From NCBI GenBank assembly GCA_037974665.1, contig CM075767.1, positions 23,027,498 through 23,091,497 of the forward strand: a stretch of DNA of 64,000 bases, given 5' to 3'. Source of the stretch: Ehretia macrophylla (Eukaryota; Streptophyta; Magnoliopsida; Boraginales; Ehretiaceae). Both the position numbers and the translations under genes were made by a program. The notes under the pieces were generated by a model. The model did not search any database. It was not told the origin of the DNA and saw only the letters and a program-made list of their open reading frames with translations. Below, piece by piece: positions 3,021-50,104 of the stretch; the first letter of the stretch is position 1; each line of letters opens with the position of its first letter.

Positions 3021-3319
3021 AATATAAGCTCGTAATCTTATGTTATATAATAGTGTTGGAATTTCTACAGTGCTTTGCTATTCAGATTGGTCAAGAGATA
3101 AAAATATCCGTTGAAGACTCAACTAGTCAAGTCGTCTGCTTAGGTTGGTTAATCAAGAGAGAAAGTCTTCCATCAGCCATGGCTGATGATTAGTCAAAAA
3201 ATAAATAGATAGAATTGTGACACATTATCATCGTGGAGTTAGTATTTAGAAAACTTTAATGACTAAGATGATTTGACCATCAGCCATGACTGATGGAAGA
3301 ATTTTCCATTTTAGCCAGT

Positions 3320-3450
3320 GATTTATTACTAGATTTTCCACATGGCCCCACTTATTAAGTCTGTTTGCTAAGTCTTTGCATAGATTTCCAAGTCAACTTG
3401 CGTGTTAGCACAGATGAAATCAGGAATAATATATTGTCAAGAAACAAACG
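3320..3450 (+). promoter_or_regulatory. Recurrent LRK10L promoter module, copy a (W-box core)
   Basis: Contains CACATGGCCCCACTTATT, then AAGTCAACTTGCG (GTTGACTT on the other strand, a W-box core), then a motif near GAAACAAACG. The same order occurs upstream of the ectodomain starts at 24406, 39612, 47209 and 60975. The W-box element lies about 150 bp before the ATG at 3545. Regulation by WRKY factors is an inference from the motif only. Confidence 0.55.
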
Positions 3451-3544
3451 TGTAGTTTACAAATATTAGATGATTCATACCCTGTTCATCTCTTCTTGTT
3501 GTTACTCTTTTCTCTGTTGTGCTGAATAGGGAAGTTTCATCAGT

Positions 3545-5864
3545 ATGGCTCTTTCCTCTTCTTTAATTGCCTTCGTTCTTTTGCACCTTCCGATCTTTCA
3601 CTTGGCTCGGGGGCAGAGAGAATCCCAGTCTAATTGCACAGAGTATTTCGAATGTGGAAGTCTTGAAGTGATGAACTTTCCTTTCTCCAAATTTACTGAA
3701 CCAAATTGTGGCTTGTGTGTGGTTGATTGTGATGCTAAGCCATCTCCAAAGATCAATCTATGGCCAGGGAGAGAATGGTATGATACTGTAGGCCAGCGAC
3801 ACGCAAATAAAATTAGGATCAAATTTTCGTGGCTTAAAGAAGGGGGGAATTGCATTAGATTTAATATTCCCCCTCATCTTCCAAGCTCTGCCTCAATATC
3901 ATTTACGGTCTCTCCCAACATTACATTGTTCAAATGTAATACCTCTTCTAGTGACCAGAGCTTAGATCATCATTTTAATGGTTATGAAAAGTTCACCAAT
4001 TGTGGTAAAGAACATGGCTTCCATGTATTCTACAACTATAGCTATACATATGATAGAGAGCCTAGCGCTGTTGGCACTCCTCCGGCTAACTGCTCAATTA
4101 TTCAGTTGCCAGTCGTTCCCCCATATCCAGATTTGGATCCTACGGACTTGTATGGTTTATTGGCTAGTGAATTTGATCTGGAATGGCATCTTTCTGTTAA
4201 TTGTTCTGATTGTCGCCACAGAGGTGGTCAATGTCTAACTGACAGTGAGAATCGATTCAATTGCTCCCAAGGTATAGGCATATCCACTGAAAATGGTAGA
4301 GACACATCTACTGAAAAAGGTATAGGTATATCCACTGAATTATGTGGTAATCCAAATTCATATAATCTTAATTGCTTGTTTGATATTCTTATTTCTATTC
4401 GGACATGATTAGATGATCTTTGTTCATTTTGAATGTCAAGGTTTAAGCATCCTGATTAAATGGAACTCATCTTCTTTATCACTAATATATAGTATTCTTT
4501 TAACATTGGTTGTTCTGTTTTTACTTGTTCCACAGGAAGTCATGATCTGCCCGTGATTCTTGGCACAGGTAGATATCCATATAAGCAAAATCTTTAATAA
4601 GTAAATATACATTTCCATACACGGTTTATATCCATATAGATAAGATTTCTGACAGGCAAATTACAAAACTCCTATCCAACTTCTGAAGTTTTTCTCTATT
4701 GATTTATAGTTTTAGGTGGAGGCGGTTTCATTCTCATAATATGCTCAGTCATCTTTATTATCTGGCGCCGTAGGAGAAAGAGCAATGGTCCTTCCTCAAG
4801 AACAGACCTTGAAGCGAGCAGTGTCTACCCTGGGGTTCCTGTCTTCCTATGCTGAGCTCGTAGAAGCCACTAGTAATTTTGATTCTTCCAAAGAACTTGG
4901 AGATGGAGGCTTTGGTATCGTATATTACGGTAAGAAGCTCCACATTTCAAGAGCCATGTAACAGGACTGCTAAACTTTCGGCCACAAAAGAATGGATTAA
5001 TCATTGGAGTGTCGTTATTAGTTTTAGAATTACTAATACCTTTACGATGTAGGCAAACTTCGAGATGGAAGAGAAGTTGCAGTAAAGCGTCTTTATGAGC
5101 GCAATTATAAACGTGTTGAGCAGTTCATGAATGAGATTAAGATTCTCACATGCTTGAGGCATCGAAATCTTGTTTCCCTTTATGGTTGCACCTCTAGGCG
5201 CAGCCGAGAACTACTCCTTGTTTACGAATATGTTCACAATGGCACTGTTGCGGATCATCTCCACGGTGAAAGAGGAAAAGAAAGATTACTCACCTGGCCT
5301 ATTCGCATGAACATTGCCTTCGAAACTGCCAGTGCATTGACATACCTCCACGCTTCAGATATAATACACCGAGATGTGAAGACTAATAACATACTTCTTG
5401 ATCACAACTTTTGTGTCAAAGTTGCAGATTTTGGGCTTTCAAGACTCTTCCCAAACGATGTCACCCATGTCTCAACCGCTCCACAGGGAACTCCTGGCTA
5501 TGTCGATCCAGAATATCGTGAATGCTACCAGCTAACCAATAAGAGCGATGTTTATAGCTTTGGAGTTGTCCTCATCGAACTAATATCATCATTGCCTGCT
5601 GTTGATATAAGCAGGCATAGACAAGAGATCAACTTGGCTAACTTAGCAATCAATAGGATCCAAAGTCGCGCATATGATGAGTTAATTGACCCATCACTGG
5701 GGTACACATCCGATCCTGAAGTGAAAAGAACGACTATTTCCATAGCCGAGTTAGCTTTTCAATGTCTGCAAGTCGATAAGGAACTGAGGCCGAAAATGGA
5801 TGAAGTATTGGAGGTTTTGACGGATATTAAGGAGGCTAAGGAGGACTTCCAAGTCTTGGAATGA
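3545..5864 (+). pseudogene. Chimeric LRK10-like receptor kinase, frameshifted
   Basis: Exon 1 (3545-4271) encodes a signal peptide and a cysteine-rich cell-wall ectodomain: GUB_WAK_bind (C..YFECGSL..MNFPFSKF..PNCGL) and WAK_assoc (LEWHLSVNCSDC..RGGQC). Exon 2 (4536-4568) is the short SHDLPVILGT linker. Exon 3 (about 4716-4929) gives the membrane helix, an RRRRK stop-transfer and the glycine loop GDGGFG. Exon 4 (5053-5864) gives the rest of the kinase: VAVKR, HRDVKTNN, DFG, GTPGYVDPEY, ending EDFQVLE and stop. The ectodomain is of the type found at 24406, 39612 and 60975, whereas the kinase is the class found at 49044-50104, so the gene is a fusion whose joint lies in intron 2. The exon phases still fit. 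A 2-nt loss near 4845, compared with 49190-49200, brings TGA at 4853-4855 before the glycine loop. Intron 1 read-through gives a 287-residue secreted ORF ending at 4408. Confidence 0.85.
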
Positions 5865-7053
5865 TGAACTATCCTTTCTCCAAATTTACTGGACCAAATT
5901 GTGGCTTGTGTGTGGTTGATTGTGATGCTCAGCCATCTCCAAAAATCAAACTCTCATCAGAGGGAAAGGGAGAATGGTATGAAACTATAGGCGCGGAACA
6001 CACAAATATACTTAGCATCCGTGCCCCATGGCTTGAAGAAAGGGGTTGCTTTCGTTTTAACTACTTGTTTTTTTCTCTCTCGGAGAAGTTGTAGATGATT
6101 GTGTTCATTTCCAATATCAACCTTATCACTAATGTATAGCATTGTTTTTACCTTGATTGCTTCAAGGCCAAGTTCTGCTGGGTAAAGCAACCCTGCATGG
6201 GTTCAGTCCTTTCCGATCCCTTGACCCCACAAAGGTTTTATAAATTGATTTGTAGGTTTTATACATGCAATTAACTCATATTCCTGCATGGATGAAATTA
6301 ATCATTTCCCCAAGTAGTTACGTTCAACGTTTTGGAATCTTACATACAGTAGACTTCGCCTACTAACTTTCTTTTGTTCGGGGGACAGGTGCGAGTAAGG
6401 ATCTTCTCATAATATAATATGTCCTAGTTTCATAAAGGTTGTCCCACATATGTAAGATTTAAACTTCCAAAAGCTTATGTAAGATATAACCTTCCACTCA
6501 TTCACAGTTTTTCGGACCCATTACATCTAAAATTAGACAGGTTTATATAGGGGTGAATTTAGAATTTTTTTCACGGACAACTAATTCCTTTTCTTAACAA
6601 GGGTTAATTACCGTTCCATATACAATTAACGTCCGCGCCCCTTGGTGGCATGATAATAAGGATTGTTTAGTTTTAAAAATATCTCTTTTCCAAACTCTGC
6701 TTCTATATCATTTACAGTCTTTCTCACATTTCATTGCTCAATCCATATGTAGATCCTCCTAAGGACTTGTTTAGTTTATTGGCTAGCGAATTTGATCTGA
6801 AGTTGTTCTAATTGCCGCCACAGAGGTGGCCAATGTCTAACTGACAACCTAAATCGATTCTATTGATGATATTCATTTTCTATAGCTATCACCCTAAACA
6901 TTATCCTGCCAGCTATTTATTTATTTATATATTGTCGTTATTGTTTAATTCTGGTGCAGGTGCAGGTAGCCATATGCGACTAATTCTTGGCATAGGTACC
7001 TACCGCGTCGGTTAAGCATATTTTTTACCATCTTCGTGTTAATGCATAATTTG
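5865..7053 (+). pseudogene. LRK10L ectodomain relic fused to the kinase 3' end
   Basis: Directly after the kinase stop the sequence turns into a second ectodomain copy (MNYPFSKFTGPNCGL, then CVVDCDAQPSPKIKL) up to about 6075. Further scraps follow: 6640-6720 (matching the RAPSWLENKDCF region), 6745-6860 (DPPKDLF..LASEFDL and the RGGQCLTD end) and a linker exon at about 6960-6998 (SHMRLILGIG). Stops and gaps remove any reading frame. The same relic follows the second kinase at 50105-51290, so the fusion predates the 11-kb duplication. The relic's kinase part resumes at 17256 after the retrotransposon insertion. Confidence 0.8.
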
Positions 7054-7242: not shown

Positions 7243-7531
7243 AAAAGGAAACAAGGCTGAAAAAATATAATACATTGCTCTCATGTTTATGTAATGTGTT
7301 TGAATATGATACAATACAATGTAATGATGCAAAGAATTACAAGGAATTTATAGGCTATAACATAAACTAAACAATGATGAAATGAGTTGCCATATGCAGT
7401 AGAAATGAGCTGTCAATGTGCAGCTCATGAACAATAAACATCACAGCTAGCCAATCACATGTGTAGCTGTATTCTTCTTCTTCTTTACAGCTATTGCAGC
7501 TGTATTATTCTTCTTTACAGATATTTCAACA
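7243..7531 (-). repeat. 3' LTR of the inner copia element
   Basis: 289-bp repeat, bounded outside by CTAAC (7238-7242) and inside by the polypurine tract (CTCCCCCTCAAGC in + orientation, 7532-7544). Confidence 0.92.
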
Positions 7532-7538
7532 CTCCCCC

Positions 7539-9119
7539 TCAAGCTGGGGTAAAGATATCAACAAGCCCGAGCTTGACAATAGCTGATTGGAGAAGTAATG
7601 GTCTAGTTGACTTAGTAAATATGTCAGCAGCTTGCTCGGATGATGTAACAAAATAAGGTGTGATAACCCCTGAGCGAACTTTTTCTCGAATAAAATGGAT
7701 ATCAACTTCAATGTGTTTTGTCCTCTCATGAAAGACTGAGTCAGATGACAACATAATAGCAGATTTATTATCACAGAACAAGGTAGACGAGTCAATCACT
7801 GGAAAGCCCAACTCAGTCAGGAGATAGCGTAACCAAAGAAGTTCATATGTTCCTTGGGCCATAGCACGGTACTCAGCTTCAGCAGAAGATCGCGAGACAA
7901 CTGCTTGCTTTTTACTTTTCCATGAGATAAGGTGATTGCCACGGAAAGTACACATACCCGAGGTAGAACGCCTATCACTTTTTGACCCTGCATAATCAGC
8001 ATCAGTGTAACAAGACAATCCCTCCTGTATTCCAGTTGTATAGAAGATACCAAGACCAGGATAAGATTTAAGATACCGGAGGATATGATAAACAGCATCC
8101 AGATGAGAAGTACGAGGTGCGTGCATGAATTGACTTACAATACTCACTGCATAGGTTAGGTCCGGCCTTGTGTTAGTCAAGTAGATAAGCCGACCTACAA
8201 GTCTCTGATATACTGATGGCTCAGCTAACAGTTCCCCTGATTCTGCTGTCAATTTAAGATTTGGGTCCATAGGAGTAGAAACAGGGCGACAACCTAGCAT
8301 ACCCGTATCTTGAAGAAGATCCAATGCATACTTTCTTTGCGACAAAGATATACCCTGGCGATTTCGGGCCACTTCAATACCAAGGAAGTATCGGAGCATG
8401 CCTAGATCTTTAGTGTCAAAGATCGTCCCAAGGTCTCGCTTCACTTGAACAATTCCCTGAGTGTCATCTCCAGTAATGATAATATCGTCCACATATACTG
8501 AGATAATGATACATCTACCTTGAGAATGGCGTCGAACAAAGCATGTATGATCTGAATGACACCTAATGAACCCCATTGTAAGGACCACTTCACTAAAACG
8601 GCTAAACCAAGTTCGAGGGGATTGTTTAAGCCCATAGAGAGATTTACGAAGACGGCAAACTTTCCCGGAATACTCCCCCTGAGTCCGAAAACCTGGTGGA
8701 GGATCCATGTAGAGAATCTCAGAAAGGTTACCATTAAGAAAGGCATTCTTGACATCTAATTGGTGAAGAGGCCAAGAAAAAGAGGCATCTAAGGAGACCA
8801 AGAGCCGAACATTAATTAATTTGGCAACAGGAGCAAATGTGGCACCAAAGTCCTTGCCTGGTACCTGAGTAAACCCTTTAGCAACAAGGCGTGCCTTATA
8901 TCGATCGATGGTGCTGTCAACAAGGTACTTCACATTAAACACCCACTTACACCCAACTGTCCGTCCACCAACTGGAAGATCAACTAGCTCCCACGTTTGA
9001 TTTTGCTGTAAGGCATCCATCTTTATTTTCATAGCGGCCATCCATAAAGGATCCTGGAGAGCCTCATGAATGGAGCGAGGGATAAAGACTGAATCAACCT
9101 GACTAAGGAAAGATTTATA
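7539..9119 (-). pseudogene. Inner copia: reverse transcriptase and RNase H
   Basis: In the same frame as the upstream gag-integrase segments but cut off by TAG at 9120-9122. It shows the copia RT block (WELVDLP..KWVFNVKY, KARLVAKGFTQ, QLDVKNAFLNG), the catalytic YVDD in SVYVDDIIITG, LYGLKQSPRTWF, and the RNase H block (DADYAGSKSDRRSTSG, SWKSKKQAVVSRSSAEAEYR, CDNKSAI, HERTKHIEVD). It ends LGLVDIFTPA just upstream of the polypurine tract. The product copies the element's RNA in virus-like particles. The first methionine (9041) is internal to the polyprotein and not a genuine start. Confidence 0.9.
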
Positions 9120-10859
9120 CTAATCGGAGAGACCCTGAAATGACACAAACTTGGCAATAGGATGATTAGTACTACATGAAAGTAAGTAATGAGAAGGTGG
9201 ACGCCGTTCACAAGTAGGGTAACGAGGAGGTGCAGGTTCAGGGACCACGGAAGAAGAAGGGTTACCTGAATCCGGAGAAAAATCTGGCAATGGAGCAGAA
9301 GCACGAGGACACCGGGAGTAAACTTGTAATGGAGCGGGAGAATAACTAGGTGAAAGAGTATTACTAGAGTGCGGTGGTGGTTCATTAGTGGGTTGAGATG
9401 TGTCAATAATAGGAATAGGACGAGGAAAAGGAGGGTCCTCTATAGAGAGCACCCCAGGAAGTTGCTCGAAGGCAAGAGAATTAGAGAAAAAAGGGATAGC
9501 CTCAAGGAAAGTGACATCAACTGAGTGGTGAAAGTGACGAGTCACAGGATCATAACACCTATATCCTTTAGACATGGAAGAATACCCAAGAAAGACACAA
9601 CGTATAGCTTTATCATCTAGCTTAGTGCGAGTCGGGCTACGATTTTGAACAAAACATGTACAACCAAAGACTCGCGGGAGAAGAGAAAAAAGAACAGTAT
9701 TTGGTCGGAGAATATGCAAGGGTGTTTGACTTTGGAGGACACGACTAGGGGTACGATTGATGAGGTATGTTGCAGTGAGTACAGCTAAGTGCCAGAAATA
9801 TTTTGGGACATTCATTCCAGATAGAAGACATCGGACCATAGACATAATGTGACGGTTCTTTCGTTCTGCCACACCATTCTGTTCAGGTGTATAAGGACAA
9901 GTAAGCTGCTGAAGAATTCCTTTTTTATTGAGTTCGGCTCGAAAATCGTTGGTTAGGTATTCTCTGCCATTGTCAGACCTAATATTGCGAACAACAGTGT
10001 GGAATTGGGTTTTCACCATTTGAAGGAAATGAGTGAAATGGGTGAAGACTTCAGATTTTTTCTTCATTAGGTAGACCCAAGTACACCGACTATGATCATC
10101 TATAAATGTCACATAATAACGATGTTGAGAGAGTGCCGTGACAGGAGAGGGACCCCAAATATCAGAGTGAACAAGATCAAATGAACATAGAGCTCGATGC
10201 ATACGAGGAATATATGTAGTGCGAGTATGTTTTGACAATTCACAAGTCACACAATTAAATTTAAAATCCTTGCATGCTTTTTTAAAAGAAGGAAATAACC
10301 AACATAAATATTGAAAGTTTGCATGTCCTAAACGAGCATGCCACAAGTCTAAATTTTGAATAGAACCAACAGGAGTATCAAAAACTGGAGACACAGAAGC
10401 ATGTAGACTTGACAAGGGTATTATAGAGGTTGGAGGTTTGCCAAAGTAGTAAAGTCCATCGTGTTCATATCCCCTGCCAAAAGTCTTCTTCGAAGTCAGG
10501 TCCTGTAGAAAACAACGGTCGGGTAAAAAAATAGCTGCACAATGAAGACTCTTGGCAAGACGACTAACAGACAATAGGTTATAAGCAAAGTTGGGCACAT
10601 AGTAAACAGAGCGAAGAGTTATATCTGAGGATAAACAGGCATCTCCCTGACAACGAATAGGAATAGATGTTCCATTGGCAATTTGAACGGATTGATTTAT
10701 GGAGGTGACAGGAGAAGAAAAAATGGAAAGCTCACCAGTCATATGATTATTGTCCCCAGAATCCAGAATCCAAGATGGTTGGCCTGACTTACCATGAAGT
10801 GCAATAGGAGTACCTGTAACAAGAGCAGTCGTGGGGCCATATAATGAAGATAACCCCAA
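9120..10859 (-). pseudogene. Inner copia: protease and integrase
   Basis: The protease has lost its canonical site: WILDSGDNNHMTG stands where copia has DSGA(S/T)xHM, so residue A reads D. The GAG-pre-integrase and integrase follow: HARLGHANFQ..C..C (HHCC zinc site), then DLVHSDIWGPSP, TFIDDHSRCTW, SDNGREYLTNDF and the E of EQNGVAERKNR, completing the DDE triad. The C-terminal region has the copia VFLGYSSMSKGYRCY motif and a proline-rich linker. It ends at TAG (9120-9122), in frame with the RT segment. Confidence 0.88.
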
Positions 10860-10865
10860 GTGGAG

Positions 10866-11189
10866 TTATAGTTGAGCAATCTGAGCCTGAAGTTGACTAT
10901 AATCGGGTTGGGCCGGAACTAATTCTGTTGAGGTTGATTCGGCCACAGCCCCAATACGAGGAGCTCTTTTCTTTTGCCCACCACCACGGTTTCTAGAGTA
11001 TTGTTGCTTTAATTCAGAATGAAGGATAAAGCATCGATCAATGAGATGACCAGTCTTCCGACAGTGTTGGCAATAAGGACAAGTGCTGGTTTGCCTAGAA
11101 CTGGAAGGAGCAACAAATGCCATCTGGTCCAGAATAGGAGAAGCGGGCTCTGGTGCAAGGAGAAGACGCCTTCGTTCATCACCATCCAC
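10866..11189 (-). pseudogene. Inner copia: gag C-terminus with zinc knuckle
   Basis: Part of the gag-pol frame between TAG (11238-11240) and TAA (10866-10868). It carries a knuckle-like CPYCQHCRKTGHLIDRCF segment, the RNA-binding nucleocapsid motif of copia gag, with a basic tail (NRGGGQKKRAPR). Probably translated only as part of the polyprotein in the intact ancestor. Confidence 0.8.
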
Positions 11190-11237
11190 AATTGCAAATG
11201 CCTCAAATAAAGATGGCAGAGGAGATGTATTTAAAAT

Positions 11238-11840
11238 CTAAGTCCGAAGATTCTCGAATTCAGGTTTTAATCCCATCAAGAACTGATAAGTCCGACGATG
11301 ATCAAGACGTTTAGCCTCAACCTCAACATTATTTGGAAAATCACTCAAAGGCTCATATTGAGCTAGCTCTTCCCATCTAGTTTGGAGATACCCGAAATAA
11401 TCCGCAATAGATAGTCCCGAAGTTGCTTGAGAAGCATGAGAAATTTCACGGTAAAGCTCGAAGATTCGAGAATCATGGCGTGCATGGGCATACGTCTTTG
11501 TTAGGGCAGTCCATAGACCATGAACTGTCTCGTGATACACAAACATATTATAAATCCGATCCTCCATAGAATTGAACATCCAACCCAAAATTATACAATT
11601 GTCCGCATCCCATTGACCATAATCAGGATCAGTTTCTTTTGGCTTTTTCTCTGTGCCTAAAATCCATCCAATTTTATGTTTTCCACCAAGATAAAGGCGA
11701 AATGAACGAGACCAGGCATGAAAATTTTTTCCATTCAATAATACACTTGTAACACACTGTGCTGGAGCATTAGATTCACGAGAAAAATCTACACGAGGAG
11801 CACCAGATGCCTGACTTGTTGCTGCCTTTTCAGTGGTCAT
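11238..11840 (-). pseudogene. Inner copia: gag N-terminal capsid region
   Basis: Starts ATG at 11840 and encodes a UBN2/retrotran_gag-type domain: SVLLNGKNFHAWSRSF, LGWMFNSMEDRIY, GLWTALTKTYA, then RWEELAQYEPL and FLMGLKPEFENLRT. It stops at TAG 11238-11240, where copia gag proteins commonly have glutamine (LR.QIL), so CAG to TAG is likely. The downstream frame continues without a shift. Confidence 0.87.
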
Positions 11841-12327
11841 TGATGCAATAACTTGGATGAAATAGCTTATAAAGATAATAGTTTAAGAAGCATTGAGAAA
11901 AATATAATAGCGTATGGATGTCATGACATGTTAAATCTAATGAAAGACAAAGGCATGTGAAAAAGAGCAGGTTGACGCATGAAAATTGCAGAAATGGAAA
12001 GAAGAGACTGAGCCGACCATGATGGTGATAATTTCACGTGAATCTGGTCGTCGTTGGCGGTGCGTGAGATGCACGTACCTTGGGTGGTGGTGCGTGGGGC
12101 TACAACAGGTGGTTGTCGGCGACGGGAAAGGGTTCTCCTAGGTCGGATTTTCGTGCTGAGTGCGATGATGGTGATAGATCTGTTGGAAGAAGACAGAAGA
12201 AAAAGAGAGAGAAAAAAATATAACGATGAACAGTAAATGGCTGACAGAAGAAGACGATGAACAATGTTTTTTTTTTTTGTTTTTTTGTTTTTTTGTTTTT
12301 GGTGAAGGCAGATTCTCTAACGTTTTG

Positions 12328-12340
12328 GCTCTTGATACCA
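12328..12340 (-). other. Primer binding site, inner copia
   Basis: TGGTATCAAGAGC on the - strand directly follows the 5' LTR. It resembles the initiator-methionine tRNA-complementary site typical of copia (TGGTATCAGAGC), with one extra A. Confidence 0.85.
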
Positions 12341-12629
12341 AAAAGGAAACAAGGCTGAAAAAATATAATACATTGCTCTCATGTTTATGTAATGTGTTTG
12401 AATATAATACAATACAATATAATGTTGCAAAGAATTACAAGGTATTTATAGGCTATAACATAAACTAAACAATGATGAAATGAGTTGCCATATGCAGTAG
12501 AAATGAGCTGTCAATGTGCAGCTCATGAACAATAAACATCACAGCTAGCCAATCACATGTGCAGCTGTATTCTTCTTCTTCTTTACAGCTATTGCAGCTG
12601 TATTATTATTCTTTACAGATATTTCAACA
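12341..12629 (-). repeat. 5' LTR of the inner copia element
   Basis: 289-bp copy, 97.9 percent identical to 7243-7531 by my count. The A-rich and TATA-like stretches on the - strand are the likely element promoter. Confidence 0.92.
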
Positions 12630-12635
12630 CTAACA

Positions 12636-13855
12636 TTCCCCCTCAAGGTTGGAGTGTATAGATCATGCACTCCTAACTTGCTAAGTAGACTGATGAATTG
12701 TTGTCGTCCTAATGGCTTGGTGAACATATCTGCCAATTGTTGAGATGTAGGAATGTAACCTGTTTTAATCAAACCTGATTGTATTTTTTCTGGAACTAGG
12801 TGGCAGTCTAACTCGATATGTTTGGTTCTTTCATGAAAAACTGGATTCGAAGCTATATGAAGAGCGGCCCTATTGTCACAGAATAATATTGCTGGTTCAG
12901 GATGGTAAAACTTTAGCTCGTGTAGCAAGTATTTCAGCCAAGTTATCTCGTAGCTTGTATTTGCGATGGCACGATACTCTGCTTCAGTGGAAGATCTTGA
13001 AACTATAGGCTGCTTTTTGGTTTTCCAAGAAATAAGTGACTTCCCAAGCTTTACACAAAATCCAGTTGTTGACTTCCTTGTGATTGGGCAACTCGCCCAA
13101 TCTGAGTCACAGTATGCCTTAAGGGATAATGAATTATCTGAAGGAAACAGAAGTCCTTGTCCAGGAGAATTTTTAAGATAACGAAGTAACCTCATCGCTG
13201 CATCAAGGTGTGGTTTGTGAGGAGCATGCATGAATTGACTGAGTGTATGCACTGAAAACACAATGTCAGGACGAGTGATGGTCAGGTATATGAGTCTCCC
13301 TATGAGCCCCCTGTATGTGGATGGTTCATTCAAGAGTACACCATCGTCATTGGTCAGTTTAAGATGTTGTTCCATGGGGAAGTCGTGAGGGCGGGCACCA
13401 ATATATCCTGCATCGTTAAGAATGTCCAAGGTATACTTTCTTTGAGAGATGTATATACCTTGTCTAGATCGTGCAACTTCAAGTCCAAGAAAGTATTTGA
13501 GTGGTCCAAGATCCTTTATGCGAAATCGTTCTTGAATAAATTGTTTTAAATGAGTAATTGCTTCAGGATCATTCCCACCAATAATGATGTCGTCCATATA
13601 AACTAGAACTGCAATAAATGAGGAGGCATGACTGTGAGTAAATAAAGAATAGTCAGCTCGAGATGGAGTGTATCCAGCATCCTGCAATGCAGAAGAGAGT
13701 TTGGCAAACCAATTTCTGGAGGCCTATTTGAGACCATAAAGAGATTTATGAAGCCGACAGACTTGATTCTCCCTCTGTTTGCCAACTCCAGGTAGAAGAG
13801 TCATGTAAACTTCTTCATGTAAATTTCCATGTAAGAAGGTGTTGTGGACATCAAG
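12636..13855 (-). pseudogene. Outer copia: reverse transcriptase 3' part and RNase H
   Basis: Continues the pol frame past TAG at 13856-13858 and contains a second TAG at 13724-13726. Between and after them: [23 protein letters not shown](stop)ASRNWFAKLS, YMDDIIIGGND (catalytic YMDD instead of the commoner YVDD), FLGLEVARS, then RNase H (YCDSDWASC, SWKTKKQPIVSRSSTEAEYRA, CDNRAALHIASNPVFHERTKHIE, ADMFTKPLG). The end at about 12640 abuts the polypurine tract TTCCCCCTCAAGG (+ orientation). Both stops fall on residues that are glutamine in the family. Confidence 0.88.
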
Positions 13856-15565
13856 CTAGTGAAGTGTCCAATTTCGGGAAGCTGTAACAGCAAGAAAACA
13901 TCTGACAGTGGTTAATTTAGCAACAGGTGAAAAAGTCTCATAATAATCCAGGCCCTCTTGCTGAGTGTAGCCTTTGGCTACGAGTTGGGCCTTATAGCGT
14001 TCAATGGAGCCGTCAGCTTTATATTTAATCCTGTAAACCCATTTGCAACCAAGTGGCTGCTTTCCAGGTGGTAGTGAGACAATTTTCCATGTTTTATTGG
14101 CCGTGAGAGCAGACAATTCTTCCTCCATAGCTTGACGCCAATTAGGATCTTGGGCTGCCTGGTTATAAGAAGTAGGTTCTATGTTGCTAGAAATAGTGGA
14201 AAAAAAACAATGATGACGACTAGAAAGGCAATCGTAAGAGAGATAGTGTGAGAGAGGATAATGAGTACCTGTAATGGAACCTTGCGTCAAAGAAGGCGTT
14301 GGAGTGGGCACAGAAGCTTGAATGGTATTGCATGTGTAGTCACTGAGATGCGCTGGAGGTCGGTGGGTGCGAGTAGAACGCCGAATCGGTTGAGGAGGAA
14401 CAGGTGGGTGTACTGGAGAGGATCGTGGAACAGATGGAGAAGACGGGGAAGTGTCATTAGTGGCATCATGTGGTGGTATAAATGTGGGTGAGGTGTCATT
14501 AATGGGAATGGGAAGAACAGGAGAGGATTCAGGTGGTAAAGACTCAAAGGTGTCTGCGAGTGGGAAAATGGTCTCATGAAAGACTACATCGCGACTAGTA
14601 AAGATTTTGCGTGTATTGAGATCATAAAGCCGATATGCTTTCTGGCCAAAAGGATATCCCAAAAAAATGCAAGGACAGGCACGATTATCAAATTTATGGG
14701 AGGGGATGAGATTAGTGGCAAAGCAGAGACATCCAAATACTCGTAAATAATGATAAGGAGGTGGATGGCGCATTAAGAGTTCATATGGAGATTTACCTGA
14801 TAGAATAGGTGTGGGCATACGGTTTATAAGATAAGTAGTTGTGAAAACACAGTCGTCCCAGAACTTTAAGGGAAGAGAAGCCTGGAAACGAAGTGCCCAA
14901 GCAACATCTAAGATGTGTCTGTGCTTGCGTTCCGCGACACCATGTTGTTGGGGTGTAGAGACGCAACTATGCTGTTGAATGACGCCTTTATTTGTTAAAA
15001 AGGTGGTGAATTCTTTAGAGAAAAATTCAGAACCATTGTCACTGCGAAAACGTTTGACTGAACAAGAAAATTGAGTCTTGACCATCTTAAAAAAATTTTG
15101 TATGATGTTACAAGTTTCAGATTTGTGTCGCATGAGATAGACCCAAGAACATCTGGAAAAATCATCCACAATTGTTAAAAAGTAATGCGCACCAGCAACG
15201 GAGGGGAGAGGAAGAGGTCCCCAAATATCGCAGTGTATTAATTCAAATATAGAATATGTAGAAATAGAACTCTGTGGAAAAGAATTCTGAGTTTGCTTTG
15301 CTAATGGACAAGTTGAACATATAAACTTAGAATCAAAAGAAATGTTTAGTTCCCTGGTAGACAAGTGACGAACACGAGCAGGCGAGGGGTGACCGAGGCG
15401 TTGATGCCAGACCTTAGGAGGCACGTTGGTGAGAGTGGCGTGGGAGGATGATTGCGGTGTAGGTGGAGGCATAAAAAGGTATAGACCGTTGACTTCTTTG
15501 CCCAAACCAATCGTCTTCTTCATGGCAAGGTCCTGAAAAACATAAATGTCAGGGTAACAAAACAA
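13856..15565 (-). pseudogene. Outer copia: integrase and reverse transcriptase 5' part
   Basis: A 569-residue open segment. It has HQRLGHPSPARVRHLS and CSTCPLAKQ (HHCC), DIWGPLP, TIVDDFSRCSWVYLM, RSDNGSEFFSKEF and QQHGVAERKHRHIL (DDE integrase), the VFGCLCFA/CIFLGYPFGQKAYRLYD C-terminal motif, a proline and serine-rich linker, then WRQAMEEELSAL, GCKWVYRIKYKADGSIERYKA and AKGYTQQEGLDYYETFSPVAK of RT. It ends at TAG 13856-13858. Its upstream end is a frameshift near 15570 relative to the protease segment. Confidence 0.88.
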
Positions 15566-15807
15566 TTTAGCGCTTTTGTGAGCTTGCTAACAGAGAGTAA
15601 ATTAACATTAAAACGAAGAACATAAAGGACATCATTTAAATAGAGATCGGAGTTTAAAGAAACAGAGCCTGAAGAGGAAACTGGAACATAATCGCCATTA
15701 GGTAAGCGAATAGAAGAATGATAAAGGGAAGAATAGGAGAACAGGGGATCACGAGTGCACACCATGTGATCTGTGGCACCTGTGTCAATGATCCATGCCA
15801 TTTTTGA
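15520..15807 (-). pseudogene. Outer copia: protease segment
   Basis: Contains the aspartic protease site WIIDTGATDHM and the downstream LPNGDYVPVSSSGSV and LLSVSKLTKAL. In frame with the gag C-terminal segment but separated by TAA at 15808-15810, and shifted near 15570 from the integrase segment. Confidence 0.85.
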
Positions 15808-16966
15808 TTAGGAAAAAAAAGCACCAGCAGAGAATAAACAAGAGGCTTTACCTGTGACATTGGCTAGAGAGTACGAAGTACCTTCATTAAGGAGGGCTAA
15901 AATCTGTTTGTACTGGGCTGGAGTGAATGAAGGGATAGAAGCAGGGGCGTCAATATTCTGGTCTTGAGGACGGCTACCTGAGGCGGCATGTGAGGAAGAT
16001 TCAGACTTGGGCTGGTGATTGCGATGGCCAGGTGAGTAACCATGTAGTTTCCAGCAACGATCAATGGAGCGGCCAATACCTTGAAGACCAAGGTTGTGAC
16101 AGTACTCACATGTGGAGCGATTGCGCCCCGATCCACGAGAATTGGAAGTATTACTGCTTTTGGAATTGGGCTTGAAAGGTGAAGAATGACGATGAGCAGC
16201 CAGGGCAGTAGTGTCAGAGGGAAGAGCAGCGACAAGAGCAGCGGCTTCGGAAGAAGGAGACAACGTAGAGACTTCGCGTTGCTTTTCTTCTTGGAGGACA
16301 AGAGCATAGGCTTTATTAATGGATGGTAGGGGATCCATGAGGAGGATTTGACCTCGGATGGCACCATAAGAGTCATTGAGACCCATAAAAAATTGAAGGG
16401 CCCGTTCTTCTTGGAAACTAGAGGAGAGAGTTTTCATAGCCCCACAATTGCATGGAGGCACTGGATGATAGGAAGATAATTCATCCCATAGGGATTTTAG
16501 CTGATTGAAATATGTGGCAATGGAGGAATTGTGTTGCTACAAAGAAGAGATAGCACGACGGAGCTGATATATACGTGGCGAATTACTCTGCAAAAATCGT
16601 TCGCGTAGATCAGTCCAAACGGCAGAAGCAGCATCTGTATAGATGACACTATTAGCGATGCCAGGATCGACAGAATTGAGAAACTAGGAAAACAACATAT
16701 TATTGCACCGTTGCCAAAGAGCAAGATCGGCAAGAGCAGTTGCCGCATCAGGACAAGGTAACGAACCATCGATGAAGCCGAGCTTATTTTTGGCACTAAG
16801 TGTCGCTTGTGAGTATGCGGGAGACGAGGGTGCTAACTAGAGTGTCTGAGGTATGAAGATAATATGGCTGGGAGACATCCGAGGACAAAGGTTGAGGGGA
16901 TGCGGATGACGGAGGAATTATAGAAGAGGAGACGGTGGCTGGTGGGGAAGAAGAGGTAGCAGCCAT
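15808..16966 (-). pseudogene. Outer copia: gag, frameshifted
   Basis: The likely start is ATG at 16964-16966 (MAATSSSP). Pieces in different frames give a capsid region, and 16461-15808 gives PCNCGAMKTLSSSFQEER, ALQFFMGLNDSYGAIRGQIL and the zinc knuckle CEYCHNLG..DRCWKLHGYSPGH. At least two frameshifts and a stop near 16683 prevent a continuous product. Confidence 0.8.
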
Positions 16967-17065: not shown

Positions 17066-17255
17066 TGTAAAGGAAGATTCCCAAGAGAGTTATATTTTTA
17101 TTGATACACAATATGTTTCTTATATAAGATTTACAATCATAAATCAAGCAATTGTTAAAGGAAATAATATACAACTATGACAATGCCCAGATTTCTAGTT
17201 TATCAAATCATGTGCTGATTTTCCTCGTTGACTTGCCTTCGATATATCGCTAACA
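17066..17255 (-). repeat. 5' LTR of the outer copia element
   Basis: 190 bp, TGTAAAG...CGCTAACA in + orientation. Followed by target duplication ATTTG (17256-17260). Confidence 0.92.
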
Positions 17256-24405: not shown

Positions 24406-27038
24406 ATGGCTCTTTCCTCTTCTTTAATTGCCTTCTTTCTTTCGCATCTTCTAATTTTTCACTTGGCTCGGGGGCAGAAAGAATCCCAGTCTAACTGCTC
24501 TCAGTATTTTCAATGTGGAAGTCTTAGAATCATGAACTTTCCTTTCTCCAAATTTACTGAACCAAATTGTGGCTTGTGTGTGGTTGATTGTGATGCTAAG
24601 CCATCTCCAAGAATCAAACTGTCATTAGAGGGAGAATGGTATGATACTACAGACAAACAAGTACAGGCAGATACAATTAACGTCCGCGCCCCTTCGTGGC
24701 TTGAGAATAAGGAGTGCTTTAGTTTTAAAAATCTCTCTCTTCCAAACTCTGATTCAATATCATTCACAGTCTTTCCCCACATTACATTGTTCAAATGTAA
24801 TGTAATATCTCTTCTTGAGAATAAGGATTGCTTTAGCTTCGATCATCATTTTAGTGGTTATGCAAAGTTCACCGGTTGTTGTGAACTGCATGGCTTCCAT
24901 GTATACTACACCTAAACAGATGAAAGAGATCCAAGTGCTCTTGGTACTCTTCCAGATAGCTGCTCGATTATTCAGTTGCCAATCGTACACTTCGATCCAT
25001 ATGTGGATCCTCCTAAGGACTTGTATGGTTTATTGGCTAGTGAATTTGATCTGCAGTGGCATCTTTCTGATAATTGTTCTAATTGTCACCAAAGAGGTGG
25101 CCAATGTCTAACTGACACCGAGAATCAATTCCATTGCTCTGGAGGGACAGAAATATCCACCTCCAAAGGTATAGGCATATCCATCGAATTTTTGTGGCAA
25201 TCCAAATTCATATGATCTTAATTGATTGAGTATCAAGGTTTAAGCATCCTGATTAAATGGAACTCATCTTCTTTTTATCACTAATGCAGAGTATCCAAGT
25301 TCTGTGTTACTTGTTCTGCACGAGCTCATATTCTAGACAAATCACACATGTACATATTGATTTAACCAAAAACTACTTGCACATACCAGTTATATGCATA
25401 CATACAAGCACTAGGTGCGAAACAAAACAAAGATTTGTTAGAACCCTATAAAAGAAAATAGTATTTGTAAAATATAAAAATAAAATGTTTAGTTATCTAT
25501 TCAAACAAGATATATAAATTCATTGGCTCTCACGCTCAAGGTAAATTCTCATCTATTTTTTATTTGTATAAATGTGATGAGCCTTGTTAGGCAGTTGAAT
25601 TCAGCAAATGCAAACCCGCCCCACCAGTAGCACAAAAGTACCCCCCAATAAGAAAAAGCAAGAATGACAACTTTTTTCAAGCTTTTACATAATTATAATC
25701 TGATCTTTTACATAATTTCCTTTTTTCTAACACAAAATCATTCTACCCGTGATTTAATTCTATTTTTGTTCGTTTTGATTTATTTTTTGGTGCAGGAAAG
25801 CGCAGTTTGCAACTTATTCTTGGCACATGTACCTTCTGTAATTAAAAGTGCTACTTGGACATATTCATGTATCAATGCATCAATTACATCCATAATTTTA
25901 TATTCTTGTACTTCATAATAAATTTGTTTCTATTTACTAATTGCAGTTGTCCCTGCTAGTGGATTTGCAATACTCACGCTAGTCTACTGTTGCTTAAGAA
26001 GGAAATGCTCAATTTTTAATTTTAAAATAGACAAATGCCAAGATGTGGAAATCTTTTTAAAGAATTATGGTTCACTTGCTCCTAAGAGGTACCACTATTC
26101 TAATGTTAAGAAAATGACAAGCTCTTTCAAGATTAGATTAGGTGAAGGAGGCTATGGTTCTGTATATAAAAGTAAACTTCGTGATGGTAGTTTTGTTGCA
26201 GTGAAGATGTTGAATGACACAAAGGGAAATGGAGAAGAATTTATCAATGAGGTCGCAAGTATTAGCAGGACTTCTCATGCTAACATTGTCAAGCTTCTTG
26301 GGTTCTGTTTTGGGTGCAACAAAAGAGCTTTTAATCTATGAGTTCATGCCTAATGGATCTCTTGAGAAGTTCATCTATGAGAAAAAATCATTGGTAGATC
26401 GCCAGTTGGGATGGGAAAAATTGTACAAAATTGCAGTTGGCATTGCTCGAGGATTAGAGTATTTACATTGTCTTTGTAATACTCAAATTGTGCACTTTGA
26501 CATAAAGCCGCATAACATTCTTCTTGATGAACAGTTTTGTCCTAAAGTTTCTGACTTTGGCCTTTCTAAATTATCTACTAGGACAAAAAGTATTGTATCA
26601 ATATTGGGTGCGCGAGGGACAATTGGATATATCGCTCTCGAAGTTGTTTGCAGAAATATTGGAGGGGTCTCTCATAAATCCGATGTCTATAGCTATGGCA
26701 TGATGATTCTTGAAGTCTTTGGAGAAAGAAAGAATGTCGATGTTAGAGTCAATCATACCAGTGAGATATATTATCCGCATTGGATCTACAAGCAACTTGA
26801 ACTAAACCAAGAGCTTGGATTTGATGGAATTATGGATGAATAAGAGAATGAGAAAGCAAGAAAGATGATCATGGTGAGCTTGTGGTGCATACAAATAGAT
26901 CCATCAACTCGACCATCAATGACTAAGGTGGTAGAAATGCTAGAAGGGAACCTAGACTCCTTGCAAGTTCCTCCCAAACTCTACTTATTTTCGCCTTCTC
27001 GGTCACCGGTTGAAGTTTCAAGTGTAAAAATAAATTAG
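24406..27038 (+). pseudogene. LRK10L receptor kinase with three lesions (copy A)
   Basis: Exon 1 (24406-25168): signal peptide, GUB_WAK_bind (QYFQCGSLRIMNFPFSKF, PNCGLCVVDCDAKP) and WAK_assoc (LQWHLSDNCSNCHQRGGQCL). Exon 2 (25796-25828): RSLQLILGT linker, with its last base changed (AT/GT instead of AG/GT). Exon 3 (25947-27038): membrane helix, [12 protein letters not shown], kinase with [51 protein letters not shown] and the [18 protein letters not shown] tail. Lesions by comparison with copy B: TAA at 24913-24915 (TAT in B), one extra T near 26325 in the N-lobe, and TAA at 26841-26843 (GAA in B). A small difference at 24790-24840 duplicates a LENKDCFSF-like segment. The start at 24406 is chosen because all relatives share MALSSSLI; an in-frame ATG exists at 24394. 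Confidence 0.88.
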
Positions 27039-31767: not shown

Positions 31768-32090
31768 TTAATTAAAAGAAATTAAACAAAGAACATATCT
31801 GCAAAATGTTTCAACCTTGAAGCGCAATCCATTATCAAGTTGAACATAAGTTTGGAATTCGCCGTCAAGTGTACTTGCTACAACAGTGATAATCCAGGGC
31901 GCAACATTTGAAACAGTTTTTTCACATGGTCCTTTATTCCCAGCTGAACATATAACTGGTATGCCATTCTTCACGGCATGGAATGACCTAATGGCAACAG
32001 AATCTTCAATGTACTCTATCGGTTTTCCTCCAATAGACGCTGAAATCACATCAACTTCATCATATATGGTGCAGTTTGTGAGTGTGGTCT
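31768..32090 (-). pseudogene. Subtilisin-like protease (S8) exon fragment
   Basis: The - strand encodes EVDVISASIGGKP, SVAIRSFHAVKNGIPVICSA, GNKGPCEKTVSNVAPWIITV and ASTLDGEFQTYVQLDNG. This is the region of plant subtilases that carries the oxyanion-hole asparagine (SAGNxGP), closest in wording to the SBT5/AIR3 type. The exon appears to end at about 31816 (RFK, then a GT donor on the - strand), so part of an intron was carried too. The catalytic Asp, His and Ser regions are absent. It lies inside the putative Pack-MULE, so it is best read as a captured fragment. Confidence 0.82.
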
Positions 32091-32243
32091 GAATGGCGAA
32101 TGATTCAGTGAATCGTACGATTTGATACGATTCATAGACAATTCATGTTGATTGACGATTCTCCCATTCGATTCGTATCGATTCTTTGCTGAATCGTATC
32201 GAATTATACAGTTCGCAACGATTTCGACAACAGAGCTTTTAAC

Positions 32244-46699: not shown

Positions 46700-47208
46700 A
46701 TGAAAAATATTCCAACAATCTAGTGAAGTCCTCTCATGGTTGGATGTTGAGTTGCATGTGGATGGCCTAATGTGTAGTTCACACATAATTGGTCAATTCA
46801 CATCCCCTCTGAATGGTATTATTTGTGGTTCATACTTAATTGATAGACCTCACATACATGTAAGACTTATCAATATGTGTACATTTTGCTTCATACTAGT
46901 CAGATGTAAGTCTTTTTTATGGATGGTCAATCAAGAAGTTGAGTACGAAGCTCAACAATCTCTTAATGGAAATTCTAGCATGTGATATTTGACACGGCAC
47001 CACTTATAGCTCCAAGTCTTTCCCTCGTGTCGTACGCTAAGATTTCCAAGTCAACTTGCATTTGCATTTTGACAAAAAATAAAAATGAAAAAATAAAAAA
47101 TAAAAAGAAAAAGAAAAAACTTGTGATTGCACAGATGAAACTATAATATGGTTTAGTTCCGCTTACCTATCTTCCTCTTATCGTGGTTCGTTTTCTACCA
47201 TGCTGAAT
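46700..47208 (+). promoter_or_regulatory. Upstream region of a relic, promoter module copy g
   Basis: Similar to the flank at 2040-2210 and then to the shared module (GGCACCACTTATAGCTCCAA, TTCCAAGTCAACTTGCATTT) about 155 bp before the relic ATG at 47209. The 81-residue ORF at 46740 has no domain and lies across this repeat. Confidence 0.5.
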
Positions 47209-47385
47209 ATGGCTCTTTCCTCTTCTTTAATATCCTTCGTCTTTCGCAACTTATCTTTTACTTCTCTATGGGGGAGAATACATCCCAGTCTAACTGCACT
47301 GAGTCTTTTGAATGTGGAAGTCTTGGAGTCATTTCCAAGAATCAATCTGTGGCCAGAGGGAGAAGTAAAATTAGAATTCCTCTAG
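47209..47385 (+). pseudogene. LRK10L ectodomain relic, short
   Basis: ATGGCTCTTTCC start, signal peptide with a shift, then C-terminal scraps matching ESFECGSLGV and PRINLWPEGE with the intervening segment deleted. Nothing of WAK_assoc or kinase follows. Confidence 0.8.
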
Positions 47386-48193
47386 ATATTTTTTTGGTCA
47401 TTCAATTCCTCAAGAATGAAAAGGTTATTGCATGACTTTTGCAGCATCGCGTTAATTACGTTTTTTACTTCGAAATTTTTTTATGTTATACACGTCTTTT
47501 CTCACTTTAATTCCATCCAGTGACTGAGAATCTCTGTTTCACCCTAAATATTTCTAAATGACCATATTTTTGGTGCCACGAATACTGATAAATTTGACTA
47601 AACAACTCAACACTGCTTGGTACTTTAAGAATTCCAATTTTTCGCCAACTTGTGTAGAAAACAAAAGTCTGGATTTCGTGTAGATAACACCACCTTGACG
47701 TATGACCTAATTAGTTGATTCTTTATTCCAACAGAATTAAGTTTCCATTTTCATTGACAATATTCACGTAATAGCGCTCGTTGCGTGTAAAGAGATCAGT
47801 CTAGTGGGTAAGCTTTTAAAATGTAGAGGAGAGACTAAATTACATCTCACGTTCAAATTAGTTAAAAAATTATTTTTCTTAAAGATAAATCTTATAAGCT
47901 TTGTGTTAGACTAATTTCGACTATGTCTCATCTAAATAAGATCATATTTTTCCAAATATAGTTTTCCGTCATAGAAAAATATCCACATAATAGCTAGACT
48001 AAGTCTGGCAAAGGTCGGTCTCATGTCGCTACATGAAAATAGTGAAAGCAGAAGTAAATATTCAAACTCTTGAACCTCTCCTTGAATTTTACACCTCTAT
48101 CCATCTATAGAGCTAGCTTGTTGCTGTTTCCAAATTCTCCTCTCTCCCTACTTTCTCTCTCTCTCTCTCTCTCCCTCTCTCTCTTGAAGAGAA
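47386..48193. other. Upstream region of the 48194 gene
   Basis: No gene. Contains a CT-repeat (48156-48184) just before the ATG, a common feature of plant 5' leaders. Confidence 0.5.
48156..48184 (+). repeat. CT-rich microsatellite in 5' leader
   Basis: CTCTCT run interrupted once by CCC, ending 9 bases before the ATG at 48194. Confidence 0.85.
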
Positions 48194-50104
48194 ATGCATG
48201 TCAATCTCTACCAACCCTTTTCTCTGCTGATCACAATTAGCCTCATCTACATTCCAATATCTTTCTGTGAAGAAAATGAGCAATATCTAAGCTGTGGTAA
48301 GTTCCTTCGCTGTGGAAACCTTGACAATGTTGGCTATCCTTTCTATGGAGATGGCCGACCTGTCCACTGTGGCCATCCAGGTTTCGAGTTAAACTGCGAA
48401 AAAAATATCCCATTCATTACAATCCAAAAGGTCACTTACCGTGTCCTAACAGTCGATAACACAACACAGCATCTTACTATTGCCAGAGACGATCTGTGGA
48501 ACAATATTTGTCCCACGCTTCTATACAACACTTCCCTGGATTTCGACATCTTTGATTACGACACGAATGAGCGAAACATTACTCTGTACTATGGTTGTTC
48601 CACAATTTCAGGCCAACCATATGAACCTCCTAATCGGTTTGATTGTTCCGTCAATGATACCACCGGCTTTGGCTTTTATTTGCTCCCAGATGAGCCTGTT
48701 TTGGACTATTTATGCATTGATAGTATCAAAGTTCCGGTTAATCAAGCAGCTGCCGAGAATTTAATTGACCTTAAAGCTTCTGGTGATAAATTGAAAACAG
48801 CTCTAGCTAGTGGCTTCGGTTTAAAATGGTTTGCCATGGAATCGATAAGTTCTTATCTGTATCTAGACATGGTTTTCACTTTCTTGTTATAACAGGGCCA
48901 TCCCCATTCTTTAACTCGGGAATCAAATTGACACTCCTCATATCAACGATCCAGATAATATGCTCACCTTAACCACGTACAAAATAAACAAGTGTGAATT
49001 TTGACGATGTTTGTTATATATATAGTGGTTTAATTTTGCCGCGATGCTCATAATTTGCTTAGTCATCTTTATTATATGGCGCCGTAGGAGAAAGAGCAAT
49101 GGTTCCTCATACATTCATTCGCGAATTACATCTTCTGATCCTTCCTCAAGAACAGACCTTGAAGCGAGCAGTGTCTACCCTGGGGTTCCTGTCTTCTCCT
49201 ATGCTGAGCTCGTAGAAGCCACTAGTAATTTTGAGCGCAAACTTCGAGATGGATTAGCTTTAGAATTACTAATTCTTAACCTTTATGATATAGGCAAACT
49301 TCGAGATGGAAGAGAAGTTGCAGTAAAGCGTCTTTATGAGCGCAATTATAAACGTGTTGAGCAGTTCATGAATGAGATTAAGATTCTCACATGCTTGAGG
49401 CATCGAAATCTTGTTTCCCTTTATGGTTGCACCTCTAGGCGCAGCCGAGAACTACTCCTTGTTTACGAATATGTTCACAATGGCACTGTTGCGGATCATC
49501 TCCACGGTGAAAGAGGAAAAGAAAGATTACTCACCTGGCCTATTCGCATGAACATTGCCTTCGAAACTGCCAGAGCATTGACATACCTCCACGCTTCAGA
49601 TATAATATACCGAGATGTGAAGACTAATAACATACTTCTTGATCACAACTTTGTGTCAAAGTTGCAGGTTTTGGGCTTTCAAGACTCTTCCCTAACGATG
49701 TCACCCATGTCTCAACCGCTCCACAGGGAACTCCCGGCTATGTCGATCCAGAAAATCACGAATTCTACCAGCTAACGAATAAGAGCGATGTTTATAGCTT
49801 TGGAGTGGTCCTCATCGAACTAATATCATCATTGCCTGCTGTTGATATAAGCAGGCATAGACAAGAGATCAACTTGGCTAACTTAGCAATCAATAGGATC
49901 CAAAGTCGCGCATATGATGAGTTAATTGACCCCTCACTGGGGTACACATCCGATCCTGAAGTGAAAAGAATGACTATTTCCATAGCTGAGTTAGCTTTTC
50001 AATGTCTGCAAGTCGATAAGGAACTGAGGCCGAAAATGGATGAAGTATTGGAGGTTTTGAAGGATATTAAGGAGGCCAAGGAGGACTTCCAAGTCTTGGA
50101 ATGA
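48194..50104 (+). pseudogene. LRK10L1-class receptor kinase, catalytically dead
   Basis: Exon 1 (48194 to about 48890): signal peptide (SFCEENEQYLSCG), GUB_WAK_bind (FLRCGNLDNVGYPFYG..PVHCGHPGFELNC) and the start of WAK_assoc (GCSTISG, LASGFGLKW), but the C-terminal Cys-rich end is missing. About 49030-50104: membrane helix (LIICLVIFIIW), RRRRK, SYAELVEATSNF, then the glycine loop is absent, replaced by RKLRDGLALELLIL. VAVKRL is present. HRD reads YRD (TAC at 49608-49610), one base is lost near 49651, and DFG reads GFG (GGT at 49667-49669). The remainder (DVYSFGVVLIE, LRPKMDEV, FQVLE) is intact in the next frame. Same kinase class as the 3545 gene but with its matching ectodomain. Confidence 0.88.

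Follow-up and report, generated by a model that had tools for sequence, protein, structure and literature searches.

Receptor kinases are thought to gain ligand specificity partly by recombination between ectodomains and kinases, a process whose individual steps are rarely visible. For the LRK10-like receptor kinases considered here, we take the two kinase classes T1 and T2 to correspond to those named LRK10L-1 and LRK10L-2, and the T2 genes of the analysed DNA are labelled LRK10L-2 on the same assumption. Arabidopsis AtLRK10L1 gives rise to two transcripts (1.1 and 1.2) from distinct promoters (PMC10573068), and LRK10L-2 is listed in a 2023 paper among the extensively expanding RLK subfamilies (PMC10152718), which fits the large T2 array described below. 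The non-RD motif is reported to correlate with kinases of innate immunity (PMC4295470), so that the exchange of a non-RD partner for an RD kinase is of interest. Three further sources were consulted (PMC10203267, PMC10868138 and PMC7313013). An exchange of ectodomains between LRK10L classes was not seen in the literature searched, which comprised titles and the starts of abstracts, with most subscription papers outside its scope.

The stretch of DNA analysed, referred to as the window, comprises 64,000 nucleotides of contig C4 (C4:23027498-23091497) in the 1.58-Gb assembly (20 contigs) of Ehretia macrophylla. Within it lies a tandem array, in decay, whose LRK10-like receptor kinases belong to both classes. 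Genes in the window are named by position; copies elsewhere are L009 to L012 on C4 and L014 on contig C7. The T2 genes (24406, 39612, 60975 and fragments) combine an ectodomain that is divergent with a short linker exon and a non-RD kinase showing HFDIKPHN in the catalytic loop (HFDIKTHN in the fragment at 51301); the T1 genes are characterized by an RD kinase with the motif HRDVKTNN (changed to YRDVKTNN in 48194, a damaged copy) and an intron after the P-loop.

The 3545 gene resembles LRK10L-2, with its non-RD T2 kinases, in possessing a T2 ectodomain and linker exon, but differs from it, as does L009, in its RD kinase of the T1 class. In possible likeness to AtLRK10L1 with its two transcripts, the T1 loci on contigs C15 and C2 have three and two ectodomain-like stretches, respectively, before one kinase, and L009 has two ectodomain exons, arrangements that would be compatible with alternative first exons. 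Unlike in AtLRK10L1, a putative alternative ectodomain belongs here to another class, the divergent T2 class found elsewhere with non-RD kinases. In contrast to plant RLKs arisen by domain fusion, the exchange occurred between two related classes of one array, and open and broken products lie side by side in it.

Architecture of the 3545 gene

The locus at 3545-5864 is composed of an LRK10-like ectodomain of the T2 class followed by a transmembrane-kinase part of the T1 (RD) class (Table 1). The predicted exons have GT..AG borders, and introns 1 and 2 are both in phase 1. The preliminary description of this DNA had claimed that two receptor classes are joined here, and the alignments bear this out. 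The ectodomain matches those of the T2 genes 39612, 24406 and 60975 at 58-67% of residues and 78.7-81.9% of DNA positions, compared to 46.7% DNA identity with the ectodomain of 48194, whereas the DNA identity of the kinase (5055-5861) is 98.0% with that of 48194 and 48-51% with five T2 kinases of the window. The linker exon, likewise said to match the three T2 genes, does so above chance (its score against 39612, 24406 and 60975 was reached in 0, 0 and 1 of 200 shuffles), but its donor and the following intron are those of L009-L012.

Table 1. Features of the 3545 gene and the 48194 copy, in window coordinates.
Feature	Position	Strand	Remarks
Exon 1	3545..4271	+	T2-type ectodomain, open; WAK_assoc-like C-terminal part
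Intron 1	4272..4535	+	T2-type; common to L009 and L012; from ~4395 also to L010 and L011
Exon 2	4536..4568	+	Linker of 33 nt, encoding GSHDLPVILGT; phase 1 at both borders
Intron 2	4569..4709	+	141 bp; 89.9% identity with intron 2 of L009, 76-78% with L011 and L012
Exon 3	4710..4929	+	Encodes the transmembrane helix, the juxtamembrane part and the P-loop; two losses, one of 36 nt in frame (near 4788) and one of 2 nt (near 4845)
Joint particular to 3545	4763..4787	+	Left side L009-like, right side L011/48194-like; in the transmembrane exon
First stop after the 2-nt loss	4853..4855	+	74 nt upstream of the last exon junction
Exon 4	5053..5864	+	T1-class RD kinase; HRD and DFG motifs intact
Second T1/T2 joint	5851..5864	+	Final kinase codons and stop are T2 ectodomain sequence
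T2 ectodomain fragment and linker relic	5851..7053	+	Directly 3' of the kinase; duplicated at 50091-51291
Truncated T2 exon 1	47208..47362	+	BLAST match to T2 up to 47332; the 30 bases after it placed by eye
C7-like promoter and T1 ectodomain of 48194	47363..48889	+	Secondary ectodomain replacement; ectodomain end truncated
48194 copy, T1 transmembrane-kinase	49036..50104	+	P-loop deleted, 1-nt loss, HRD changed to YRD, DFG to GFG

The assignment of the kinase to T1 is based on HRDVKTNN at 5367 and on the intron behind the P-loop (GxVYYG; donor 4930, acceptor 5052). Exon 4 matches Pkinase in the Pfam scan at 8.3e-45 as an RLK/Pelle-type kinase domain, and its best relatives of solved structure are SYMRK kinases. 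For the ectodomain, WAK_assoc scores 25.3-25.6 bits and thus lies below the cut-off of 27; GUB_WAK_bind is absent from the T2 ectodomains scanned and present in the T1 ectodomains of 48194, L011 and L014. Classical WAKs carry EGF-like repeats before the membrane helix, and no EGF family is found among the listed Pfam matches, so that the gene does not qualify as one. When T2 and T1 ectodomains were compared as profiles, the match was unconvincing (probability 1.7). As expected of a plant gene, relatives of the kinase among prokaryote genome contigs and of the ectodomain among viral contigs were not found; Rfam yielded no match at the gathering threshold. A 24-base tandem repeat (4269-4339) at the end of exon 1 offers more than one candidate splice donor.

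The window shows several further features. The stretches 1-27446 and 36641-64000 form broadly collinear blocks, roughly 75-98% alike depending on the segment, which resemble a large tandem segmental duplication. A reading of the window alone, in which the fusion arose at the left edge of such a duplication, was dropped once close copies had been located in the same genome and intron 2 had proved to be present in four other loci. Copia-type elements at 7243-12647 and 12545-16536, one flanked by a pair of ~300-base repeats (96% alike), are bordered on one side by a fragment of a T2 ectodomain and on the other by part of a T2 kinase starting near 17255; the open reading frames of the second adjoin the first. 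Short matches to L012/L011-type intron 2 within intron 1 of 24406 (25374-25408) and 60975 (61926-61958) look like relics, both genes using another linker exon further on. On the minus strand, an open reading frame at 31768-32142 resembles, by eye, a subtilisin-like protease fragment.

The same pairing elsewhere in the genome

The kinase search, in which 143 of 4,033 first-look candidates were scored and whose counts are hence lower bounds, revealed at least nine T1 loci with an identity of ~70% or higher, of which six lie on C4 (with 48194 split in two) while C15, C7 and C2 contribute one apiece; below these, identity drops to 52% for the next match. The ectodomain search, with all 105 candidates scored and matches representing pieces instead of genes, gave 79 T2 matches, 74 of them in C4 22.63-23.87 Mb and five elsewhere. 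At least six T1 kinases thus sit inside a T2 array of ~1.2 Mb. With both ectodomain types used as queries against the upstream DNA of each of these six C4 kinases, a T2 ectodomain was found directly in front of three (L009, 3545 and L012) and a T1 ectodomain directly in front of the other three (48194, L010 and L011).

The T2-T1 pairing is consequently not unique to 3545. L009, located 43.5 kb upstream, aligns with 3308-5854 across the whole gene, introns included, and comprises four exons encoding 663 residues with no internal stop and with its own tail. Its introns, judged from the exon lengths, are in phase 1 throughout, and its predicted product matches Pkinase at 1.9e-49 and WAK_assoc at 27.2 bits, both above the respective Pfam cut-offs (27 bits for WAK_assoc). 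L012 is also collinear with 3545, introns included, but broken, which leaves L009 as the single open gene among the three C4 copies found with this pairing. Exon 2, intron 2 and exon 3 of 3545 recur in L010, whose T1 ectodomain contains stops, and in L011, whose frame stays open for 625 residues up to the truncated tail. Upstream in L009 (2868-3606) lies another open T2 ectodomain exon, from which an in-frame splice to the same linker and kinase exons is possible (672 residues).

The suggestion that the ancestral fusion could have been a working hybrid receptor is made plausible by the existence of an open gene with the same pairing so close by; as far as the frames indicate, it is supported by L009, not by 3545, and the fusion was not an event of 3545 alone, given that L009 and L012 are collinear with it. 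The product of L009 would presumably be a plasma-membrane receptor, and its ectodomain might bind a wall- or pathogen-derived ligand.

Joints between the gene halves

The joint had originally been located in an intron of ~145 bp between 4569 and 4716. Intron 2 instead spans 141 bp, and alignment with relatives from the same genome, as had been advised, did place the youngest breakpoint of 3545, though within the transmembrane exon. The 3545 gene shows no mismatch at aligned bases to L009 over 4727-4787 and none to L011 over 4763-4929, from which it follows that the partner changes at 4763-4787; the right edge is uncertain by ~2 bases because the 36-nt gap adjoins. The introns to either side display the same step. 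Against L011, identity is 78.8% in the tail of intron 1 plus intron 2 and 96.7% in intron 3 (Fisher p 9e-7), and against L012 it is 81.4% and 93.5% (p 0.001). L012 and L011, a control pair with a common cassette, are reversed, at 98.9% and then 94.5% (p 0.02). A step is also seen against L009 (84.7% in introns 1 and 2, 94.3% in intron 3; p 0.005), so that homogenisation among the kinase halves may contribute to the difference. Judged by its sequence, the edge could stem from a crossover or from gene conversion; both would fit.

The second joint, at 5851, is common to 3545, 48194, L010, L011 and L012 and absent from L009, which keeps its tail. The intron phases fit on both sides of the linker exon, as had been stated. 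However, the T1 genes on C15, C7 and C2 possess, by eye, a linker exon of 33-36 nt with phase-1 borders between ectodomain and membrane exons, the introns of L009 are in phase 1 throughout, and the fit is therefore a family-wide property to be expected of any joint there, which carries little weight.

Order of ectodomain replacement

The ectodomain of 48194 is quite different from that of 3545, as previously noted, yet it is not the ancestral form. Intron 1 of L010 and L011 starts like that of the C7 gene (L014) and switches at TCTA to the intron 1 of T2-ectodomain genes, whose tail is identical between L012 and L011 at 136 of 137 positions. In L011 and 48194 the C7-like segment begins, at 47363 in the window, just behind the truncated T2 exon 1, a part which L010 lacks; within 48194, the matches to C7 extend over 47363-47765 and 47946-48834. 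The C7-like T1 segment, being flanked by T2 sequence, must have been inserted into a gene in which a T2 ectodomain and a T1 kinase were already combined. The swap leading to 48194 is thus the later event and the T2-T1 hybrid the older form. The T1 ectodomains of L011 and C7 differ at 41 sites across 239 codons, and the kinases of C4 and C7 (L009 and L014) at 259 sites across 266 codons, as expected for a transferred ectodomain. The absence of exon 2 and intron 2 from 48194 is its own deletion relative to L011. The array has exchanged ectodomains more than once.

Outside the array, one T2 gene was read on contig C10; it carries a T2 non-RD kinase, and both main exons are open. A search at E 1e-3 of the 10-kb stretches that hold the T1 kinases of C15, C7 and C2 yielded no T2 ectodomain. 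These loci are most simply explained if the T2-T1 hybrid was derived within the array and is older than the copies in the window. That the T2 kinase is the native partner of the T2 ectodomain is thinly suggested by this one outside gene and the genes of the window.

Damage and selective constraint

The 2-nt loss near 4845 does break the frame, in agreement with the preliminary description, and is confined to 3545, being absent from the five other aligned C4 copies (L009, L010, L011, L012 and 48194). Together with the separate in-frame loss of 36 nt in the juxtamembrane part, it leaves 3545 with an interrupted frame where its relative L009 reads through. A stop codon further than 50-55 nt upstream of the last exon junction usually subjects a transcript to nonsense-mediated decay; at 74 nt, the mRNA of 3545, if made, should be a target. 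The 3545 gene is a pseudogene, and the chimeric receptor lineage to which it belongs is real. The 48194 copy is more heavily damaged, the end of its ectodomain being cut and its P-loop being deleted with a short copy of exon 4 sequence standing there instead. This copy of the exon 4 start, at 49236-49254, resembles the outcome of templated end joining. Structure prediction for the 48194 ectodomain was uninformative (mean pLDDT 29.8).

The T1 kinase shows a synonymous excess. In exon 4, L009 differs from the five copies by 18-22 synonymous and 13-17 non-synonymous changes (P 0.0001-0.0009 against the neutral share), with values of 19 and 16 for 3545 (P 0.0009). Between 3545 and 48194 there are 8 changes of either kind in exon 4 (P 0.056), and 10 synonymous and 9 non-synonymous when part of exon 3 is included (P 0.024). 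Among the T2 kinases, the excess for 39612 and 60975 (45 synonymous, 60 non-synonymous; P 0.0005) indicates past constraint there as well; 24406 and 60975 gave 5 synonymous against 7 non-synonymous changes (P 0.24) in one comparison and 4 against 9 (P 0.48) in another, and the fragments 17294 and 51318 gave 12 and 20, with 3 counted as stop (P 0.26).

The ectodomains of L009 and 3545 (31 synonymous, 96 non-synonymous) do not differ from neutral expectation, and constraint in this part is indicated only by indels in multiples of three. The indels measure 3, 3, 3 and 6 in this pair, and all seven between 3545 and 39612 are multiples of three, whereas other T2 ectodomain pairs, involving broken copies, show indels of 1, 2, 5 or 7. 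The two ectodomains of L009 differ by 30 synonymous and 121 non-synonymous changes (one stop-counted change excluded) and by indels of 3, 3, 3 and 3; so low a synonymous number has a probability of 0.009, in one of several tests, uncorrected.

A scenario for the origin of the locus

Taking these data together, we consider it very probable that 3545-5864 belongs, as a disabled copy, to a small chimeric LRK10-like receptor kinase lineage which was reshuffled by later recombination. A T2 cassette of ectodomain exon and 33-nt linker exon would have been joined, once or a few times, to T1 transmembrane-RD-kinase exons in the T2 array, the shared phase-1 introns making such a joint spliceable, and the hybrid would survive as the open gene L009. 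In one hybrid the T2 ectodomain would then have been replaced by the C7-like T1 segment, giving L010, L011 and 48194. A T2 fragment would have cut off the kinase tail in five of the six C4 copies found, sparing L009. The 3545 gene itself would result from the union, near 4763-4787, of a 5' half resembling L009 with a 3' half resembling L011/48194, and the 2-nt loss would afterwards have stopped it in the juxtamembrane part, leaving any transcript subject to decay.

The window on its own suggests a simpler course, in which 3545 alone was made by an intron-2 deletion or crossover between a T2 gene and a 48194-like T1 gene, for T2 homology stops near 4571 and similarity to 48194 starts near 4730. 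Since, however, intron 2 and its flanking exons are collinear in L009 and L012, the unit of exon 2, intron 2 and exon 3 recurs in L010 and L011, and 48194 lost its own exon 2 and intron 2 relative to L011, a one-off fusion is extremely improbable. The joint and the 2-nt loss could also be products of the assembly, through a chimeric contig or unpolished indels; small single indels are typical of long-read errors, and near-identical tandem arrays, here with copies 85-98% identical, are prone to misassembly. With the same pairing at three separate and mutually different places, and with several lesions elsewhere being substitutions to stop codons, we find an artefact scarcely credible.

Gene conversion deserves more weight. 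If the hybrids diverged in place and an L011-like kinase overwrote the kinase half of 3545, no crossover would be needed; the clean switch of identity at 4763-4787 is compatible with this, and so is the weaker step against L009, as predicted for homogenised kinase halves. The matched tract, however, extends across the T2 fragment as far as 7053 and, after a break, recurs downstream, exceeding the usual length of conversion tracts, and we therefore regard conversion alone as rather unlikely. The stops and frameshifts in most copies of the window, with 3545 and L012 both broken, might further suggest that two pseudogene remnants were joined into a hybrid that never worked, L009 being open by chance and youth. 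This is quite improbable in view of the 663 open codons of L009 with its own tail, the synonymous excess in all five kinase comparisons with it and its ectodomain indels against 3545. Of the intact relatives with the same pairing that, if common among other species, would speak against the preliminary description, this genome provides one.

Implications

Open, recombined and broken products are preserved in one array, several joints can be mapped within ~30 bases, and for one replacement the flanking sequence reveals the order of events. Two open genes, L009 with a T2 ectodomain and L011 with a C7-like T1 ectodomain, share homologous linker-transmembrane-kinase modules; the close relationship of these modules behind different ectodomains constitutes a natural test of the role of the ectodomain. 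We tentatively put forward, as a possibility suggested by the sequences, that the array might serve as a natural platform for ectodomain exchange, in which a slowly changing RD kinase, as reflected in the synonymous excess, would be combined with interchangeable ectodomain cassettes. If this is true, ligand specificity in such receptors would shift by the swapping of cassettes at phase-1 introns, beyond point mutation alone.
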